Origin: Elusimicrobiota bacterium
Lineage (GTDB): Bacteria; Elusimicrobiota; Elusimicrobia; Elusimicrobiales; UBA9959
Assembly (NCBI GenBank): GCA_016209085.1
Contig: JACQWV010000124.1
Coordinates: forward strand, 1-36,461
Direction: 5' to 3'
Length of the DNA stretch: 36,461 nt
The translations under genes were made by a program, and so were the position numbers. Within the stretch, counting starts at the first letter, position 1, and each line of letters begins with the position of its first letter. Below the pieces are notes generated by a model. The model was not told the origin of the DNA, did no database searches, and was given only the letters and a program-made list of their open reading frames with translations. This document shows positions 3,027-20,175 of this stretch, one piece after another.

Positions 3027-3728
3027 ATGTGCAAAAAACTTGCCTGGCCCGCTGTTTTTGGCATTGCAATGGGATTCCTGGAAGCGGCCGCTGTTGTGTA
3101 TTTAAGACAGATGTTTTACCCCGAAGGATTCAAATTCCCCCTTGCTCCCATAAAACCGGACATCATTCTCTTAACGGAAATACTCAGGGAAGCCGCCACC
3201 CTGATTATGCTTATTTCCATTGCCTGCATACAGGCAAGGAGGCTTATTGTTCGTTTTGCGTATTTTATTTTCGTTTTCGGCATATGGGATATCTTTTATT
3301 ATATATTCCTTAAATTAGCGCTGAACTGGCCTGTTTCTGTCTTTGACTGGGATATCCTTTTCCTTATTCCCATTGTCTGGACAGGTCCGGTGATTGCGCC
3401 TGTCATATGTTCCCTTACCATGATCGGCCTTGCCGGAGAAATACTCTATTTTGAAGAAAAGGGCATTATTGCCCGGTTTGAGGCTCTGGAATGGGCTCTT
3501 TTGATTTGCGGCGCGTTTTTAATATTCCTTTCGTTTATACGGGATTTCGGCCTCATTATTCTAAAAAACAATTTCCTGCCCAGAATACCCTCTCTTATAA
3601 ACGACCCCGAATTCATCCGCCTCCTTTCAGCCTATGTTCCATGGTCTTTCAACTGGCCACTGTTCTGGGCAGGAGAAGCGCTGATTCTCGGGGCGTGCCT
3701 GATATTTGCAAAAAAACGCAAATACTGA
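3027..3728 (+). CDS. Conserved polytopic membrane protein of unknown function
   Basis: About 233 aa with several hydrophobic segments; ATG at 3027 preferred over GTG at 3021. Stop codon lies inside the adjacent repeat element. Confidence 0.75.
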   Translation: MCKKLAWPAVFGIAMGFLEAAAVVYLRQMFYPEGFKFPLAPIKPDIILLTEILREAATLIMLISIACIQARRLIVRFAYFIFVFGIWDIFYYIFLKLALNWPVSVFDWDILFLIPIVWTGPVIAPVICSLTMIGLAGEILYFEEKGIIARFEALEWALLICGAFLIFLSFIRDFGLIILKNNFLPRIPSLINDPEFIRLLSAYVPWSFNWPLFWAGEALILGACLIFAKKRKY

Positions 3729-3991
3729 GCTTCGCAGAAATAATGGATACGCTGGCTGAGCCGATTTTTGAGCGAGACAAGGAGTGAGGAGCGAGCATAT
3801 CTTTTGATATGTAAGCGACGAACGACGCAGTTGCAGCCGAAAAGCGGCCAGCCCCAAAGGGGAGGCTCATATTTGGCCGTCTGCTGCGTTGCTCCTCATT
3901 CACATAGCAAACGCTATGCTCATTCGTCGCGCCTTGCATCCAATCCAAATCTGAGCCTCCAACGTATCCATTATTTCTGCGAAGCTCAGTA
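3723..3991. mobile_element. MITE-like inverted-repeat element, copy A
   Basis: Ends TACTGAGCTTCGCAGAAATAATGGATACG ... CGTATCCATTATTTCTGCGAAGCTCAGTA are exact reverse complements; same family as copies at 4554, 6312 and 36148. Confidence 0.85.
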
Positions 3992-3993
3992 AA

Positions 3994-4021
3994 AACCCCG
4001 CCCTTTTTCAAGAGCGGGGTT
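3994..4021 (-). terminator. Rho-independent terminator for the SWIB gene
   Basis: Minus strand AACCCCGC-loop-GCGGGGTTTTT immediately downstream of the 4043 stop. Confidence 0.75.
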
Positions 4022-4495: not shown

Positions 4496-4553
4496 CTAAC
4501 TCAAATACTACAAAAATTCATTGGCGCGGCTCAATAAAACCGGTTTTTGGAGC

Positions 4554-4756
4554 TACTGAGCTACGTATAAATAATTGCACACTTGGCTGAGCCGACCCCG
4601 CACATGATGCGGGGCAAGAAACGAGGAGCGCGCATAACTTGGGTTATGTAAGCGACGAGTGACGCAGCCCTTCGACTTCGCTCAGGGTGGTGAGCTTGCC
4701 GAACCATCGCAGCCGAAAAGCCTCCAACGTATCCATTATTTAGTGAAAGCTCAGTA
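4554..4756. mobile_element. MITE-like element, copy B (internally shortened, with nested palindromes)
   Basis: TACTGAGC...GCTCAGTA ends; shared internal GGCTGAGCCGA, ACGAGGAGCGCGCATAAC, AAGCGACGAGTGACGCAG, GCCTCCAACGTATCCATTATTTAG. Confidence 0.75.
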
Positions 4757-4861
4757 TTATCCTTTTGTCAAGTATCCCCCAAACAAATTGCGGGGATGCG
4801 CGGTTTTGAGCCACCTGTGGGAGCCCTGTTTTTGCTAAAATTTATATATGGAGGTTCCATT

Positions 4862-6275: not shown

Positions 6276-6311
6276 TTAGTGCTGGTGGGTCTCTAATTCC
6301 TGTCCGAACAA

Positions 6312-6581
6312 ACTGAGCTTTCGCTAAATAATGGGCACGTTGGAGGCTCAGATTTGGATTAGATGCAAGGCGCTCCGAGGAAGGCGCACTTGAAAAGTGC
6401 GTCTACGAAGGAGCAACGCAGCAGACGGTCAAATATGAGCCTCCCTTTAGGGCTGGCCGCTTTTCGGCTGCGACTGCGTCGTTCGTCGCTTACATATCAA
6501 ACGATATGCTCGCTCCTCACTTCTTGTCTCGCTCAAAAATCGGCTCAGCCAGCGTATCCATTATTTAGCGAAAGCTCAGTA
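6312..6581. mobile_element. MITE-like element, copy C (opposite orientation)
   Basis: ACTGAGCTTTCGCTAAATAATGG...CCATTATTTAGCGAAAGCTCAGTA ends; interior is the reverse complement of copy A, including GGCCGCTTTTCGGCTGCGACTGCGTCGTTCGTCGCTTACATATCAAACGATATGCTCGCTCCTCACT. Confidence 0.85.
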
Positions 6582-7747
6582 GGTTTTCCTTCGCCGAAGG
6601 GCGAAATTTTTCTCAGACGCGCCACGATGTCCGCCATTTGTTTTGCGACAAAATCAATTTCCTCTTCTGTGTTGTAAACGCTGATAGAAAACCTTATTGA
6701 GCCGTGCGCAAAAGTATGCGGCGACTGCATGGCCATCAAAACGTGGGAAGGCTCAAGGGAGCCGGACGTGCATGCGGAGCCGGATGAGGCGCAGATTCCC
6801 TTTTCGCTTAAAAGAAGCAGAATGGATTCTCCCTCAATGTATTCAAAGCTTATGTTGGTGGTGTTGGGAATCCTTTCGGCTTTCCCGCCGTTTACTCTCG
6901 TATTGGGAATTGAATCCACAATTCTCTTTTCCAGGCTGTCCCTCAGCGCCCTGACCCTGCTGCTTTCGTGTTTCATGTTTTTAAGCGCCAGCTCGCAGGC
7001 TTTCCCGATTCCCACAATGTAGGGCACGTTCTCAGTGCCCGCTCTTCTTCCCTTTTCCTGGTGGCCGCCCATCATAAACGGCACGAATTTCAGGCCTTTG
7101 CGCGCATAGAGCAGTCCGACTCCTTTGGGCGCGTGCAGTTTATGGCCTGAAACAGAAAGCATGTCTATTTTTGAATTCTTCAGGTTTATCGGGATTTTCC
7201 CGGCTGCCTGGACCGCGTCTGTATGAAACAGCGCTCCTTTTGCCCTTGCTATCTGGGCCGCCTCTTCAACCGGAAAAACCACTCCTGTTTCATTATTGGC
7301 CCACATGATTGAAACCACGGCCGTTTCTTTGGTTGCTGCGTTTTTTAATTCGTCCAGGTTCAGCCTTCCTTCCCCATCAACAGCCAGATAAGTGACTTTG
7401 TATCCCTGTGATTGGAGAAATTTGCACAAATTCAAAACAGCCGGGTGCTCCACCTGCGTGGTGACTATGTGTTTTCTCTCCGGGTTCGCCCTGACAGCCG
7501 ACCATATGGCTGTTGAATCGCTTTCAGTGCCGCAGCTTGTAAAAATTATCTCTTCGGGATTCGCCCCTATCAGGGACGCGGCCCGCTCTCTTGCAATATC
7601 CAGATATTTCTGAACCTGTCCGCCGAAATAATGCATGCTTGAGGGATTGCCGTATAATTCGGTCAAAAACGGTTTCATTTCCTCAAGCGCTTCGGGCGCG
7701 GGTTTTGTGGTGGCATTGTTGTCAAAATAAATGATTTTTTCGGTCAT
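6545..7747 (-). CDS. nifS: Cysteine desulfurase, NifS/IscS family
   Basis: FDNNATTKPAPEAL, SVSGHKLHAPKGVG, SSGSACTSGSLEPSHVL motifs. C-terminal residues and stop are encoded by repeat copy C. Confidence 0.93.
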   Translation of the reverse strand: MTEKIIYFDNNATTKPAPEALEEMKPFLTELYGNPSSMHYFGGQVQKYLDIARERAASLIGANPEEIIFTSCGTESDSTAIWSAVRANPERKHIVTTQVEHPAVLNLCKFLQSQGYKVTYLAVDGEGRLNLDELKNAATKETAVVSIMWANNETGVVFPVEEAAQIARAKGALFHTDAVQAAGKIPINLKNSKIDMLSVSGHKLHAPKGVGLLYARKGLKFVPFMMGGHQEKGRRAGTENVPYIVGIGKACELALKNMKHESSRVRALRDSLEKRIVDSIPNTRVNGGKAERIPNTTNISFEYIEGESILLLLSEKGICASSGSACTSGSLEPSHVLMAMQSPHTFAHGSIRFSISVYNTEEEIDFVAKQMADIVARLRKISPFGEGKPTELSLNNGYAG

Positions 7748-8589
7748 ACTGATTCTTCCACTTGAACGGCAAAATCCACTTTTTCCTTCAGTTCTTTTTC
7801 AATAATTGACCTCATCGTAACGCCGGACATGGGACAGCCCACGCAGGCGCCGGAAAACTTTATTCTGACCACGTCCCCATCAATGTCCACGAGCTCGGCC
7901 GAGCCGCCGTCTTTGTTGAGCTTCGGATTGATATCCTGCTCAAGAATTTTTTCAATAAGGTGAATTTTCTTTACGAGGGTCATTTTGCCCTGCGTTTCTC
8001 CGGTTTTGGTCGCCTGTTTTTCCCAGAATTCCTTTAAGAGTTTTTCAAGCTCCGGGACGCACTGGCCGCAGCCCCCCCCGGCCTTTGTATAATTCGTCAC
8101 CTGCTCAACGGTTTTTAGATTGTTTTCTTTTATGGCTCTAAAAATTTTCACGTCCGTAACCTGAAAACATTTGCACACTATTTTTTCCCCGCTCCCCACA
8201 ATGTGTTTTCCTCCCCTGCCGCCCCTGTAATTCTCAACGGCCGCCTCAAGCGCTTCCATTCCCATTACAGAGCAGTGCATTTTTTCGTTCGGCAGCCCGC
8301 CCAGATATTCGGCTATGTCCTGATTCGTTATTCCGGCAGCTTCGTCAATGGTTCTGCCTTTTATCATTTCAGTTAAAGCTGAAGACGAGGCTATGGCGCT
8401 TGCGCAGCCGAAAGTTTTGAATTTTGCGTCAATAATTTTGCCGGTCGCCTTGTCTATTTTAAGCGTAAGCTTGAGAGCGTCCCCGCACACAATGTTGCCG
8501 ACCTCTCCGACAGCGTCGGGGCTTTCAATTTCCCCGACATTTTTGGGGTTCCTGAAATATTCTATCATCTTGTCCGTATAATTCCACAT
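7744..8589 (-). CDS. nifU: Full-length NifU-type Fe-S scaffold (IscU-like, BFD-like [2Fe-2S], Nfu domains)
   Basis: N-terminal YFRNPKNVGEI...VCGD...FGCASAIASSS; central CKCFQVTD...GGGCGQC; C-terminal GACVGCPMSGVTM. ATG overlaps nifS by 4 bp (ATGA). Confidence 0.93.
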   Translation of the reverse strand: MWNYTDKMIEYFRNPKNVGEIESPDAVGEVGNIVCGDALKLTLKIDKATGKIIDAKFKTFGCASAIASSSALTEMIKGRTIDEAAGITNQDIAEYLGGLPNEKMHCSVMGMEALEAAVENYRGGRGGKHIVGSGEKIVCKCFQVTDVKIFRAIKENNLKTVEQVTNYTKAGGGCGQCVPELEKLLKEFWEKQATKTGETQGKMTLVKKIHLIEKILEQDINPKLNKDGGSAELVDIDGDVVRIKFSGACVGCPMSGVTMRSIIEKELKEKVDFAVQVEESV

Positions 8590-8654: not shown

Positions 8655-9728
8655 TCAGGTCGCCGGATGGGCAGGTTTGCCCGCCGACGCCGCAGCGGCG
8701 GGAAGGGGTTGTTTAAAAAGTTTTTCAGCAAGTTCTATTGCAGAGGAAACGATTCGTCCGGCAGCGGCCGCATTGGTAAAATATCCTGAATTCCTGCTGG
8801 TCCGCTGTCTTATGACAAGAACGTCCACTTCGCTGTCGGAGCTTTCTTCATATACGACATTCGGGGCCGAGCCGACGGCCGACCCGAGAGCCCCGAGCCC
8901 GAAAAAATCAAGAATGCCTCCCACGAAAGAAGCCGGCTGAGCTGCAAAGCTTTTATATCCTTCCAGCAATTCTGAGCCCTTTTTGGCGATTAAAACACAG
9001 TATAGGTAAGGATAATCCTTGCCCTGCACGCTGTTTATTGAAATCTGGGCCTGCACGCCGTAAAACTCTTTGGGCGCGCTTAAAAGCCTTATCATCAGTC
9101 TTGCGTCTTCAGGCGCCTGTTTCCCCGAGTCTGTTTTTCCGACCTCCAGCATGGGAAAAACCTGCACGTTGCTCGGCGAAGCGAGCATTTGCATTATTTT
9201 TTCCAGAAGGTTTATTTTTATTATAAGCCGGTCTTTTTTAAGATAATACCTGTTTCCCGCAAGCCAATGCGGAAGAAAAAGAGCGGCGCAGTCCGCCGCA
9301 AAACAGCGCGCAAACGATACGGGAATAGATTGATTATGGGCCAGAACGATATAAATCAGGGCCGCAATTACGGCTACTGCCGCAAAAACCGCGGTTCCCG
9401 TGGTATTGGTTGCATCAAAAGAATTCTGGTCCCATTTTTCAAGAAGCCCTGCTTTTTCTTTGACCTTTTTATATTCATCCGGCGTCACCCTTTCCCATTT
9501 CCTGTCAATGCTTGTTTTGTATTTTGCGTCGTATCCCTCAACGATGCCTAAAAGGCTGCCGAATAACAGGGGAACAAATCCTATAAAAAACTGGGATAAT
9601 GAAATCTGCAGGAACAGGCCGGCAAGAATCAGGCCAGCTGAGAAAACCATCCGTTTTTTGTAAGGAAGGCTTTTAAAAAAATAGAATTTTATTATGTCTT
9701 GTTTTTCAGGAGGCGGAAAAAATCCCAT
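8655..9728 (-). CDS. Membrane protein of unknown function, last gene of the ACHX/rSAM operon
   Basis: 357 aa; paired hydrophobic segments near the N-terminus and middle; 11-bp gap from the preceding gene. C-terminal LPAAAASAGKPAHPAT is encoded by a GC-rich palindromic stretch. Confidence 0.75.
   Translation of the reverse strand: MGFFPPPEKQDIIKFYFFKSLPYKKRMVFSAGLILAGLFLQISLSQFFIGFVPLLFGSLLGIVEGYDAKYKTSIDRKWERVTPDEYKKVKEKAGLLEKWDQNSFDATNTTGTAVFAAVAVIAALIYIVLAHNQSIPVSFARCFAADCAALFLPHWLAGNRYYLKKDRLIIKINLLEKIMQMLASPSNVQVFPMLEVGKTDSGKQAPEDARLMIRLLSAPKEFYGVQAQISINSVQGKDYPYLYCVLIAKKGSELLEGYKSFAAQPASFVGGILDFFGLGALGSAVGSAPNVVYEESSDSEVDVLVIRQRTSRNSGYFTNAAAAGRIVSSAIELAEKLFKQPLPAAAASAGKPAHPAT
8680..8702. 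repeat. GC-rich palindrome CCCGCCG-acgccgcag-CGGCGGG
   Basis: Perfect 7-bp arms at the 3' end of the 8655-9728 CDS. Confidence 0.55.
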
Positions 9729-9739
9729 ATATTATCGTC

Positions 9740-10186
9740 TCATTTGCGGCAGTTGAGCCTTTCCGGCCCCACCCATTCGTCCCACGAGTGCGGCCAGCCC
9801 GGATAGGTTATCCAGTGAAACCCGTCCCGGACTTTGAGTATCCTGGCGGCGTAAGGTTTGTCGCCCCAGATAACGGTCACGTCTTTGCCGACAGGATAGG
9901 TTTTAAATTCTATTTTTGACGCTCCTTCAGTCGGCGCGGTGGAAACTATCTTGTCGCTGTAATCGTAAAACTCAACCATGTAACCGCCGTCAATGACTTC
10001 CAGTATCCGCGCTGTTCGGCCGGCAGCCGGAACAGCGGCGCTGCCGCCCCAGGTGCCGGAGGCTATGCCGACGGCCGGAACGCTGACATATTCGCCGACT
10101 GAAAAGGCGGGCGATGCGGAAGCAGAGAAGAACGCAAAAGCAGCCGGCGCTGCGCAAAAAGTTTTCAGCGCGATTTCTCTAAACAC
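9740..10186 (-). CDS. Small secreted protein with Tudor-knot/chromo-barrel-like repeats
   Basis: Signal-like VFREIALKTFCAAPAAFAFFSASASPAFS from a GTG at 10186 (upstream start to 10279 also open). Two similar units ARILEVIDGGYMVEFYDYSDK and ARILKVRDGFHWITYPGWPHSWDEWV. Confidence 0.65.
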   Translation of the reverse strand: MFREIALKTFCAAPAAFAFFSASASPAFSVGEYVSVPAVGIASGTWGGSAAVPAAGRTARILEVIDGGYMVEFYDYSDKIVSTAPTEGASKIEFKTYPVGKDVTVIWGDKPYAARILKVRDGFHWITYPGWPHSWDEWVGPERLNCRK

Positions 10187-11499
10187 CGGACGGCTCTTTC
10201 CAGTTCGGCATGGCCGACGCTTTCCCAGTAAAGCGGGCATGCGCCGTTGCAATGAGCTATGTGTTCGCATTTTTTGCAAATTTCGTGCGCAAATTCCTTG
10301 TTTTGAAAATATTTAAAAGGCCCTGATTTCCACAAATCTTCAAAATTGCCTGCTGATTCCAGCATGTTTCCCATGGATTTCCGGTAGCTTGAACACGGCA
10401 AGATGTCGCCGTTCGGGGCGATGCTGAGAAGCCCATCTAAGGCGGCGCAGCCTTTGTTGCCGAGCCCTTTTGAAATGGGATTAAAAATGCATACGGGCGT
10501 CGGCGAATACCACATGAATTCAAGCCCGTCTTCAACCGCTTTTTTGCGTATGCCTTCAACAAGCGGGCCTATTTCAGAATAAGAAACGAATGTTCCGGAA
10601 AAATTTTCCTTTGCGCTCCCCACCGGCATCATCATGTTCATTGAAAATTTATCCAGCCCCGCGTCTTTCACAAAATTTAAAATGTCAAAAAGAAAATTTT
10701 TGTTAAGTCCTGAAATCGTGGTGTTAGTGTGCACGCGGATTCCCGCTTTCATTAGATTTGTTATTCCTTCAGCTGCTTTTTCAAACGCGCCTTTTTTGCG
10801 GACGACCTGATCATGAATGGCCGGATTGCCCGCCTCAATGCTCACCTGCCCGGAATCAAGCCCCGCCGCCTTAAGCTCCGCCGCTTTTTCTTCCGACAAA
10901 AGAGTGCCGTTTGTGATAAGATTTGTCCACATGTTCAGGGACTTGGCGTGTTTTACAAGCTCCGCAAGGTCCTCTCTTAAAAGCGGCTCCCCGCCCGTAA
11001 AGCTGACTGACGGAACTTCCGCCTCCTTGCAGATGACGTCCAGAACTTTTTTGAACCGGTCGGCTGAAAGCTCCGGGAACTGTTCTTCTTTTTTGCATCC
11101 GCAGGCCGCATAACAGAAACTGCAGGCCAGATTGCACCTGTAGGTTACGGCTATCTCGCTTAAAACCGGAAACTCGTTGTAAGGAATTGAAAATCTTTTC
11201 TTTTCTATTGCAATCCTGTCTTCTTTCTCGTTGTAACAGCCCTTTAAAAGAGCCTGCAAATCCATGAAAAACGCATAAACGTCAAAAGAGGCTTTTTCCC
11301 TGTCTTTCTGGGGCTTAACCACGCTGAAAATGCTTCCTCCCGAGAAAAGGTATTTTAAAAGTTTTACCGCCTGCGGATTCAGTTTGTAGGCCTGGTTGGG
11401 GATTTTAATTAAAATGGAGTCTTTCTCCCGCACCCTGACGTGGGGTTTTATTTTTTTGACGTATCCGTCTATCCAGCTTATTCTGTCTTTCCAATCCAT
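10165..11499 (-). CDS. Radical SAM/SPASM enzyme with N-terminal PqqD-like (RRE) region, putative peptide/protein maturase
   Basis: TYRCNLACSFCYAACGC (CxxxCxxC); SPASM GCAALDGLLSIAPNGDILPCSSY...CKKCEHIAHCNGACP; N-terminal SILIKIPNQAYKLNPQAVKLLKYLFSGGSIFSVV resembles PqqD. Confidence 0.9.
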   Translation of the reverse strand: MDWKDRISWIDGYVKKIKPHVRVREKDSILIKIPNQAYKLNPQAVKLLKYLFSGGSIFSVVKPQKDREKASFDVYAFFMDLQALLKGCYNEKEDRIAIEKKRFSIPYNEFPVLSEIAVTYRCNLACSFCYAACGCKKEEQFPELSADRFKKVLDVICKEAEVPSVSFTGGEPLLREDLAELVKHAKSLNMWTNLITNGTLLSEEKAAELKAAGLDSGQVSIEAGNPAIHDQVVRKKGAFEKAAEGITNLMKAGIRVHTNTTISGLNKNFLFDILNFVKDAGLDKFSMNMMMPVGSAKENFSGTFVSYSEIGPLVEGIRKKAVEDGLEFMWYSPTPVCIFNPISKGLGNKGCAALDGLLSIAPNGDILPCSSYRKSMGNMLESAGNFEDLWKSGPFKYFQNKEFAHEICKKCEHIAHCNGACPLYWESVGHAELERAVRCLEKSR

Positions 11500-11500
11500 A

Positions 11501-13162
11501 TTAGTGTCCGCTGCTTACGCATGCGCCGTGACACGCGGAATGACACGCTGAATGACACGCTGAATGGCAGGCAGAGTGGCATGCGTCGTGACATGCGGAA
11601 TGACACGCGTCGTGGCATGCGCTCTGCGCAAAGGCGCCTTCATAACACATTGTTGAAGTCCGGAATCCCGAAAACGAATTTGTTAAATCCGGCATTGACC
11701 GGCCGAGGTTTTGTCCTACTCTGTCCGCGTTCGCGTAATAAGAGTCTTTCCTGCCGCAGGCATAATGTTTGTACCCGCGCCAGTAATAATCCTCGTCCAT
11801 TTCGCCCGCGCCGGGAACGTATTTCTCCAGCCTGTTTCCGTAATATTTTTTAGTCGCCTCTATGTCGCAGTCCCAAATTTTCTGCTCCAGCCCCGCAGCG
11901 ACGGTTTTTATGGCCTGCGTGACGACTCCGTTATCAAGAGTTCCGTCCGGCTTAATCCCGCTTAAAAGAACCGTTTCATACGGGTCATTGCTTGTCGTTG
12001 CCGCCGGATTTCTGGCTATTATCAGCGGCTCCTGATTTTTTATTTTTATAAGCCCTTTCCTTTCCATGTTGCCGAACATAAGGGAAACCAGCTCCTGAAC
12101 CGGCAGTTCAAGCAGCAGCCCGGCCTCCACGGAAGTGAGATTTTTCGCGACTTTTCCCGGGTTCCTGAAAGTGCCGACCTGTATTTTCGGGGGAACCCAT
12201 TCATCGCCGTCCCAGTTTATTCCTGAAATTCCCTCGCTTGCGGTAAGCATGGACATGTGTTTCCTCGTCATTACGAAAACAGGGAACAAAACGAACATGA
12301 CCAGAACCGCAAGAATCAAAAAGAACATCTCCCCGCGGGTCATCGGCATTCTGGAAAAAACGCTTCCCGGAAAGAATCTGTTGAGAATGTATCTCTCCTT
12401 TGCGGGCCGGGTTTGAGGAACCTGGGCAACGCCCATTATGTTTGAAGCAGAAGAAGAAAGATTGAAATTGGAGCCGTCCAGATAAACCTGTATTTGGAAG
12501 TGAAATTTCCTGCCGGGGTTGCGCCTGTGAAATCTGACCGTGAAAATGTTTCGGCCTTCGCTGTTTTTGACCGTGGGATAGTCAATCAGATAGTTTTTGT
12601 TTACGAATTTCTCGGTCAGAAAATTCAGCTTCGTCAGGGTTTCTGGAGAGACCTGTGCCCTTTCAATTTCGGCGGGGAAGTGAACCACGACGGTTTCGTG
12701 CTCCATGGGGTCGTCCCATTGAACCGGCGCCCAGTTGAAAACCGCGAGTTTCTTGTCCCCGGCTATTGTGTAAACGAGCTGGCCGCTCGCCTGCAAATCT
12801 GCCGCGTACCTAAAAAAATAGGTTATTTCCCCCTCATGAAAGGCTGCTCCGTTTGCAAGCGCTATGTCGTATTTAAAAGGCGCAAGCCTTATGATTTCAA
12901 GGCCGTATTTCGCGCCCCTGCCGTCAAGAGCGTACGCCTTGTCATAATCAAAAACCGGAAATTCCTGGAACCCCTCAAAATAAAACCCGTGCAGGGCCGC
13001 TCCCCTGCTTTCCCATCTTACCGCATAACCGACCTGGGCTTTGCCGTTTTTGTCAAGAACAACGTCAACTTCGGTCCATTTAAGCCGGAATCCTCCGGCA
13101 AAAACCGCCAGAGGAAAAAGAACGGACAAAAGCGCCACAACCGGAAAAAAGCGTTTTTTCAT
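11501..13162 (-). CDS. DUF2207-like membrane protein with C-terminal ACHX-repeat tail
   Basis: Signal peptide; N-terminal RLKWTEVDVVLDKNGKAQVGYAVRW; TM FFLILAVLVMFVLFPVFV; LTSVEAGLLLELPVQELVSLMFGNMERKGLIKI; tail SACHDACHSACHDACHSACHSACHSACHSACHGACVSSGH. Confidence 0.85.
   Translation of the reverse strand: MKKRFFPVVALLSVLFPLAVFAGGFRLKWTEVDVVLDKNGKAQVGYAVRWESRGAALHGFYFEGFQEFPVFDYDKAYALDGRGAKYGLEIIRLAPFKYDIALANGAAFHEGEITYFFRYAADLQASGQLVYTIAGDKKLAVFNWAPVQWDDPMEHETVVVHFPAEIERAQVSPETLTKLNFLTEKFVNKNYLIDYPTVKNSEGRNIFTVRFHRRNPGRKFHFQIQVYLDGSNFNLSSSASNIMGVAQVPQTRPAKERYILNRFFPGSVFSRMPMTRGEMFFLILAVLVMFVLFPVFVMTRKHMSMLTASEGISGINWDGDEWVPPKIQVGTFRNPGKVAKNLTSVEAGLLLELPVQELVSLMFGNMERKGLIKIKNQEPLIIARNPAATTSNDPYETVLLSGIKPDGTLDNGVVTQAIKTVAAGLEQKIWDCDIEATKKYYGNRLEKYVPGAGEMDEDYYWRGYKHYACGRKDSYYANADRVGQNLGRSMPDLTNSFSGFRTSTMCYEGAFAQSACHDACHSACHDACHSACHSACHSACHSACHGACVSSGH
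11504..11620 (-). repeat. 12-nt imperfect tandem repeat encoding (ACHX)8-AC
   Basis: Minus strand gca tgc cac gac / gcg tgt cat tcc / gca tgt cac gac / gca tgc cac tct / gcc tgc cat tca / gcg tgt cat tca / gcg tgt cat tcc / gcg tgt cac ggc / gca tgc. Confidence 0.95.

Positions 13163-16350: not shown

Positions 16351-20175
<3,825 letters not shown>

Follow-up and report, generated by a model that had tools for sequence, protein, structure and literature searches.

A three-gene module pairing an Ala-Cys-His-X-tailed membrane protein with a radical SAM/SPASM enzyme in Elusimicrobia and other bacteria

Introduction

The DNA analysed here, a stretch of 36,461 nucleotides from an Elusimicrobiota bacterium (contig JACQWV010000124.1; hereafter the window), encodes a membrane protein with a regular run of Ala-Cys-His-X (ACHX) repeats at its C-terminus, and immediately after it a radical SAM/SPASM enzyme. 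This arrangement raises the questions of whether the two proteins form a system of their own, which of the adjoining genes belong to it, and what the enzyme might do to the repeat. A first-pass annotation of the locus had proposed a previously undescribed four-gene system in which a repetitive Cys/His substrate is coupled to an enzyme carrying its own PqqD-like region. We find strong support for the central idea, although the conserved unit comprises three genes rather than four.

Organization of the locus

The source assembly of the window totals 2.35 Mb. All four ORFs are encoded on the minus strand and have the ends and spacings assigned in the first pass: 13162-11501 (553 aa), 11499-10165 (444 aa), about 10186-9740 (148 aa) and 9728-8655 (357 aa). 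A gap of 1 bp separates genes 1 and 2 (TAA-T-ATG), genes 2 and 3 overlap by 22 bp (10165-10186), and genes 3 and 4 are 11 bp apart. The features considered below are as follows.

11501-13162, minus strand: gene 1, proposed substrate; signal peptide, secreted DUF2207-like beta-sandwich domain, one transmembrane helix, TIGR04222/DUF2207-type C-domain and ACHX tail
11504-11620, minus strand: ACHX tail (residues 515-553), proposed modified region; nine Cys at four-residue spacing, eight of them with His next
10165-11499, minus strand: gene 2, radical SAM/SPASM enzyme; CxxxCxxC at C122/C126/C129, invariant C337, C351, C369, C408, C411, C417 and C421
11200-11499, minus strand: PqqD-like (RiPP-recognition-element-like) N-terminus of the enzyme, about residues 1-100, assigned from Pfam PqqD matches in orthologues and a conserved pattern
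9740-10186, minus strand: gene 3, Tudor-knot-like small protein, a passenger that relatives lack between genes 2 and 4
8655-9728, minus strand: gene 4, core third component; membrane protein (transmembrane segments at about 23-60 and 109-157) with a predicted cytosolic alpha/beta domain (about 164-339)

The conserved module is made up of three of these genes, encoding the tailed DUF2207-like membrane protein, the radical SAM/SPASM enzyme and the chaperone-domain membrane protein, and no curated NCBIfam family covers any of the three proteins. The first-pass annotation had asked whether homologues of 8655-9728 and 9740-10186 travel with the first two genes; the former does and is a core component, whereas the latter does not, its relatives being unlinked and contained in larger ORFs.

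The tailed membrane protein

The C-terminal tail of gene 1 reads SACHDACHSACHDACHSACHSACHSACHSACHGACVSSGH. No other part of the gene 1 protein is as conserved as this tail, which has a mean major-residue frequency of 0.94 (0.42-0.55 in the other regions) and an entropy of 0.18 bits (1.73-2.35 in the other regions). Of 56 tail sequences, 54 contain eight or nine Cys, and the usual ending is CVSGGSH, CVSSGH or a closely similar sequence. Conservation at the Ala and Ser/Asp positions nearly equals that of the Cys/His ligands. At the nucleotide level, codon sharing between adjacent tail units is 0.456, against 0.442 expected from independent draws, and is thus at chance level. Since near-invariant residues are here combined with scrambled codons, we conclude that selection acts on the amino acids of the tail and that the repeat is old; a recent tandem duplication or repeat expansion is ruled out by the same codon analysis.

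The secreted domain of gene 1 is modelled as beta-sandwiches that resemble the N-terminal domains of ribophorin I and of M1 aminopeptidases. DUF2207 (PF09972) matches the window protein below threshold (E-value 0.0052; 17.5 bits against a cut-off of 24.4 bits), but it also matches 31 of 51 orthologues at E-values up to 0.1 (best 6.7e-9), so the gene 1 family is related to DUF2207 with the window member falling beneath the cut-off. A single transmembrane helix, at about residues 272-303 by hydropathy and structure model, separates the secreted domain from the tail domain. For the C-domain, similarity to TIGR04222 is sub-threshold in 19 of 51 orthologues (E-values up to 0.1); three members scanned individually score 24.3-32.1 bits against a cut-off of 43, and no match was found in the window protein. 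One predicted transmembrane helix together with a signal peptide would place the tail on the cytosolic side, the charge bias flanking the helix being weak. The tail itself is modelled with low confidence. No conserved leader for a PqqD-like domain was identified beside the tail, and genes 1 and 4 have no sequence relatives in the PDB.

A departure from this organization is seen in genome UASB270, where a TPM domain takes the place of the DUF2207 N-domain while the C-domain, the tail and the enzyme are unchanged; the tail side is therefore the constant part of the protein. At this locus (L087, 3275-5625) two TPM proteins are encoded in succession, the first with a Gly-rich tail and the second with the ACHX tail and then a Gly-rich end, which suggests a domain swap onto the tail scaffold.

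The radical SAM/SPASM enzyme

The product of gene 2 contains Radical_SAM (PF04055, 1.5e-28) and SPASM (PF13186, 5.7e-9) domains together with the CxxxCxxC motif, and its seven invariant Cys besides those of the radical SAM cluster are consistent with SPASM auxiliary clusters. We note that residue 354 is Leu in the window enzyme, a position occupied by Cys in at least 90 % of orthologues (consensus GCAACDG); the other cluster Cys residues are intact. PqqD (PF05402) matches 9 of 54 orthologues at E-values up to 0.1 (best 9e-5), and although Pfam detects no such domain in the window enzyme alone, its aligned N-terminus follows the conserved pattern of the orthologues. The window protein falls below the cut-off of every NCBIfam radical SAM family, including ACGX, Cxxx, PqqE, NirJ, AhbC/D and GeoRSP; the top-scoring relatives are the heme-pathway enzymes NirJ2 and AhbD, far below cut-off. 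A role in defence was also rejected, PADLOC giving only superfamily-level viperin matches to the radical SAM core and none to the other proteins.

Genes 3 and 4

Gene 4 could be assigned to no family in profile-library searches. Its structure model is confident (pLDDT 88), and the best plausible structural match is to the type III secretion chaperone Spa15/YbjN fold (probability 0.90), though at a weak E-value of 0.05, so that a chaperone-like nature of the predicted cytosolic domain is best treated as a lead.

Read from a GTG, gene 3 encodes 148 aa; the same open frame has a further start, TTG 10279, upstream of it. Its match to Tudor-knot is weak (E-value 0.0055, below cut-off). No homologue was found in 19 Elusimicrobia neighbourhoods of the module; relatives that are 68 % identical lie inside larger ORFs of two related genomes, unlinked to the module, and there are short partial matches elsewhere in the window's own genome. 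The Tudor-knot-like gene was rejected as a component, since it stands in the operon only in the window's genome and its relatives are unlinked.

Linkage, co-occurrence and distribution

Named GTDB genomes were scanned with a profile of the enzyme and with two enzyme motifs, and 73 loci were recovered, a number that is a lower bound for the family because of the reliance on these motifs. The genomes are labelled as Elusimicrobia, Omnitrophota, Armatimonadota, Bacteroidota/Bacteroidetes, Lentisphaeria/Victivallales, Gemmatimonadota, Planctomycetota, Sedimenticola and other Gammaproteobacteria, Desulfobacterales, Acidobacteria, Cloacimonetes, Aminicenantes, Gaiellales and others. These labels span more than a dozen phyla, with the proviso that most of the genomes are MAGs, some of whose labels may be wrong.

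Gene 1 lies directly upstream of the enzyme in 62 of the 65 loci with at least 700 bp of upstream sequence, and gene 4 is present in all 70 loci with at least 600 bp downstream. The three exceptions are as follows. In a Cloacimonetes genome (L100) a gene 1 with a complete tail is found on another contig; at L108 the upstream gene is unrelated and no tail is present in the genome, which may be incomplete; and at L078, in a genome where no tail was found either, the gene upstream resembles, on reading its sequence, a reverse transcriptase of a group II intron. Wherever the contig allows, genes 1, 2 and 4 form one co-directional block in the 19 Elusimicrobia neighbourhoods.

The association holds equally at the level of whole genomes. 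Gene 1 was found in 20 of 295 genomes of the phylum Elusimicrobia; the tail pattern is present in 18, all of them among the 19 that have the enzyme, and in none that lack it. The pattern matches 16 of 294 Planctomycetota genomes, of which 13 have true tails, every one alongside the enzyme (13/13), while the three matches without an enzyme proved to be spurious, in unrelated frames. A further 40 enzyme-bearing genomes include 38 with the tail pattern, at one locus each among those listed; G336 has one extra, unrelated repeat that matches the pattern. Gene 4 was found in 9 of 41 relatives, all nine of which also have gene 1. Pairwise distances of the three proteins, calculated with the gene 1 tail removed, correlate at 0.91-0.94, against 0.18 or less in shuffles, and the three proteins are thus co-inherited. 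The enzyme and its tailed partner remain together in relatives and no curated family covers the enzyme, the two points on which the first-pass proposal of an undescribed system could have fallen.

Other features of the window and of related loci

NifS-like and NifU-like Fe-S assembly genes (6545-8589, minus strand) are located 65 bp downstream of the module in the window. In about ten further Elusimicrobia loci, genes of the NifU/NifS type are likewise found downstream; in other phyla they were not seen with any consistency. In three gammaproteobacterial loci (L094, at 8772-10570, L103 and L116) a small protein and then a ZnuA-SCO1 fusion are encoded after the module, which hints at a metal context in that clade. 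A dispersed imperfect palindromic repeat is present in the window at 3711-4000, 4553-4766 and 6307-6585, its copies agreeing at 94 % over as much as 139 nt. At its 3′ end the nifS-like ORF runs into one of these copies, which may have altered the C-terminus of the protein. The window also encodes a gyrB (16351-20160, minus strand) with an in-frame intein (Intein_splicing, PF14890, residues 454-877) situated just before or within the Toprim region.

A proposed function for the module

We consider it probable that the three genes constitute a protein-modification module in which the enzyme modifies the ACHX tail in the cytosol with the help of the third protein. That the tail is the substrate we infer from the peptide-recognition-like domain of the enzyme, its constant repeat-bearing partner, and the prediction that the most conserved element of that partner, a Cys/His repeat, shares the cytosol with the enzyme. 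The gene 1 product would have its sensor-like domain secreted, cross the membrane by one helix, and present to the cytosol a further domain and a tail of eight or nine ACHX repeats; the enzyme would bind this protein through the PqqD-like domain. Thioether formation is well documented for Cys-rich substrates of SPASM enzymes, as in the sactipeptides and ranthipeptides (PMC8326336), and the most likely chemistry in the tail would be thioether crosslinks from Cys, with His or Ser/Asp as possible acceptors, although it could be of another kind. Gene 4 may encode a partner anchored in the membrane, with a chaperone-like domain that probably serves to hold the flexible tail or to recruit the enzyme. 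The finished tail could serve as a rigid redox-active or metal-binding element that reports on, or controls, the state of the outer domain.

The main rival of tail modification is a plain metal-binding tail, in which the repeats bind metal or Fe-S unmodified and the enzyme either senses the tail or acts on some other molecule, such as a cofactor or a lipid, the whole forming a metal- or redox-sensing complex. The density of Cys and His, with ligands at every fourth residue, the NifU/NifS genes that come after the module here and in several other Elusimicrobia, the ZnuA-SCO1 fusion in three gammaproteobacterial loci and the heme-pathway affinities of the enzyme (distant as these are) all lend it some weight. 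These metal-related neighbours are clade-specific, however, and the PqqD-like domain suggests a peptide substrate; moreover, the exact Ala and Ser/Asp positions, held at nearly the level of the ligands, are needless for simple chelation. On balance we regard a plain metal-binding tail as unlikely.

Comparison with described systems

The closest described arrangement is that of TIGR04222 membrane proteins with Cys-rich tails encoded beside MNIO (DUF692) enzymes (PMC12452194). Both have a membrane protein with a related C-domain (sub-threshold in our case), a low-complexity Cys tail and an adjoining gene for an oxidative peptide-modifying enzyme. They differ in that the module enzyme is a radical SAM/SPASM protein, the tail is strictly ACHX rather than Gly/Ser-rich with Cys and is almost invariant across phyla, a third membrane protein is added, and the association is near-total rather than partial. 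In the TIGR04222 proteins the tail has been inferred to be periplasmic (PMC12452194), a point against the cytosolic position proposed here for the ACHX tail. No MNIO gene was noticed among the module neighbours inspected, the adjacent enzyme being a radical SAM protein.

The N-terminal secreted domain and membrane topology of gene 1 recall DUF2207 and TPM proteins, which are often encoded with LemA, and a TPM variant is represented by L087. Typical DUF2207/TPM proteins end in Gly-rich tails, as does the TPM neighbour at L087, and are not known to be radical SAM substrates. No LemA gene was noticed beside the module; a cluster of DUF2207, LemA and 5-thiohistidine genes has been judged unlinked by its own authors (PMC12631010).

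Two further systems share the short Cys periodicity, and membership in either would make the module RiPP-like, with the tail cleaved off as a modified peptide. In the ACGX system (TIGR04340) a radical SAM/SPASM enzyme is likewise encoded beside a substrate with regularly repeated Cys, but that substrate is a short peptide with Cys-Gly in place of Cys-His and there is no membrane protein. The window enzyme scores 105.3 bits with TIGR04340 against a cut-off of 400 and against 571-579 for true members of the same phylum; a genuine ACGX enzyme from this phylum is only 24 % identical to it, and is adjoined by a short ACGT-type peptide in the only locus where a target was found. Identity with the ACGX system was rejected on these scores and on the nature of the substrate, a 553-aa ACHX membrane protein. 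The Syntroph_Cxxx target (TIGR04117) also has Cys at every fourth residue and is a proposed radical SAM target, and some tails resemble it weakly (best orthologue, E-value 0.0019; window gene 1, E-value 0.58, 10.3 bits against a cut-off of 50), whereas the repeat of the module is the tail of a full membrane protein. Since, in addition, a conserved protease or export gene was not seen beside the operon in the neighbourhoods inspected, we think it very improbable that the module belongs to either system and releases such a peptide.

Short repeats can be generated by slippage, but the notion that the tail is a neutral repeat within a neighbourhood conserved for no biochemical reason is already contradicted by the near-invariance of the tail despite its scrambled codons, the exceptionless co-occurrence in genomes of two phyla, the retention of an unlinked tailed gene at L100 and the mirror-tree correlation, and we give it almost no credence. 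A limited search of the literature on ACGX, on DUF2207 with radical SAM enzymes and on the tail motif found no description of the module, although it may be mentioned in the 2011 survey of radical SAM target peptides by Haft and Basu.

Biological implications

The analysis defines a widespread enzyme-substrate pair that is missing from the family libraries searched. The motif of the presumed substrate is extremely constrained, which makes the putative modification directly testable. If the tail is modified, as we favour, the range of radical SAM/SPASM peptide modification would grow beyond small peptides to include the tail of a complete membrane protein. The parallel with the MNIO/TIGR04222 arrangement, in which another enzyme is used, suggests that equipping this membrane scaffold with modified Cys-rich tails is a strategy of general use. 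The module also offers a first entry point to the functionally uncharacterised DUF2207-type proteins of uncultured phyla. We advance more tentatively, as a specific form of this proposal that may well need revision, the suggestion that the cytosolic end of a transmembrane sensor is given a Cys-His tail with regular crosslinks by the enzyme, so that a signalling protein conserved in many phyla would carry a permanent redox or metal device of peptide origin. Crosslinking of Cys-His tails would then be a protein modification that serves housekeeping and not the production of a secreted natural product.
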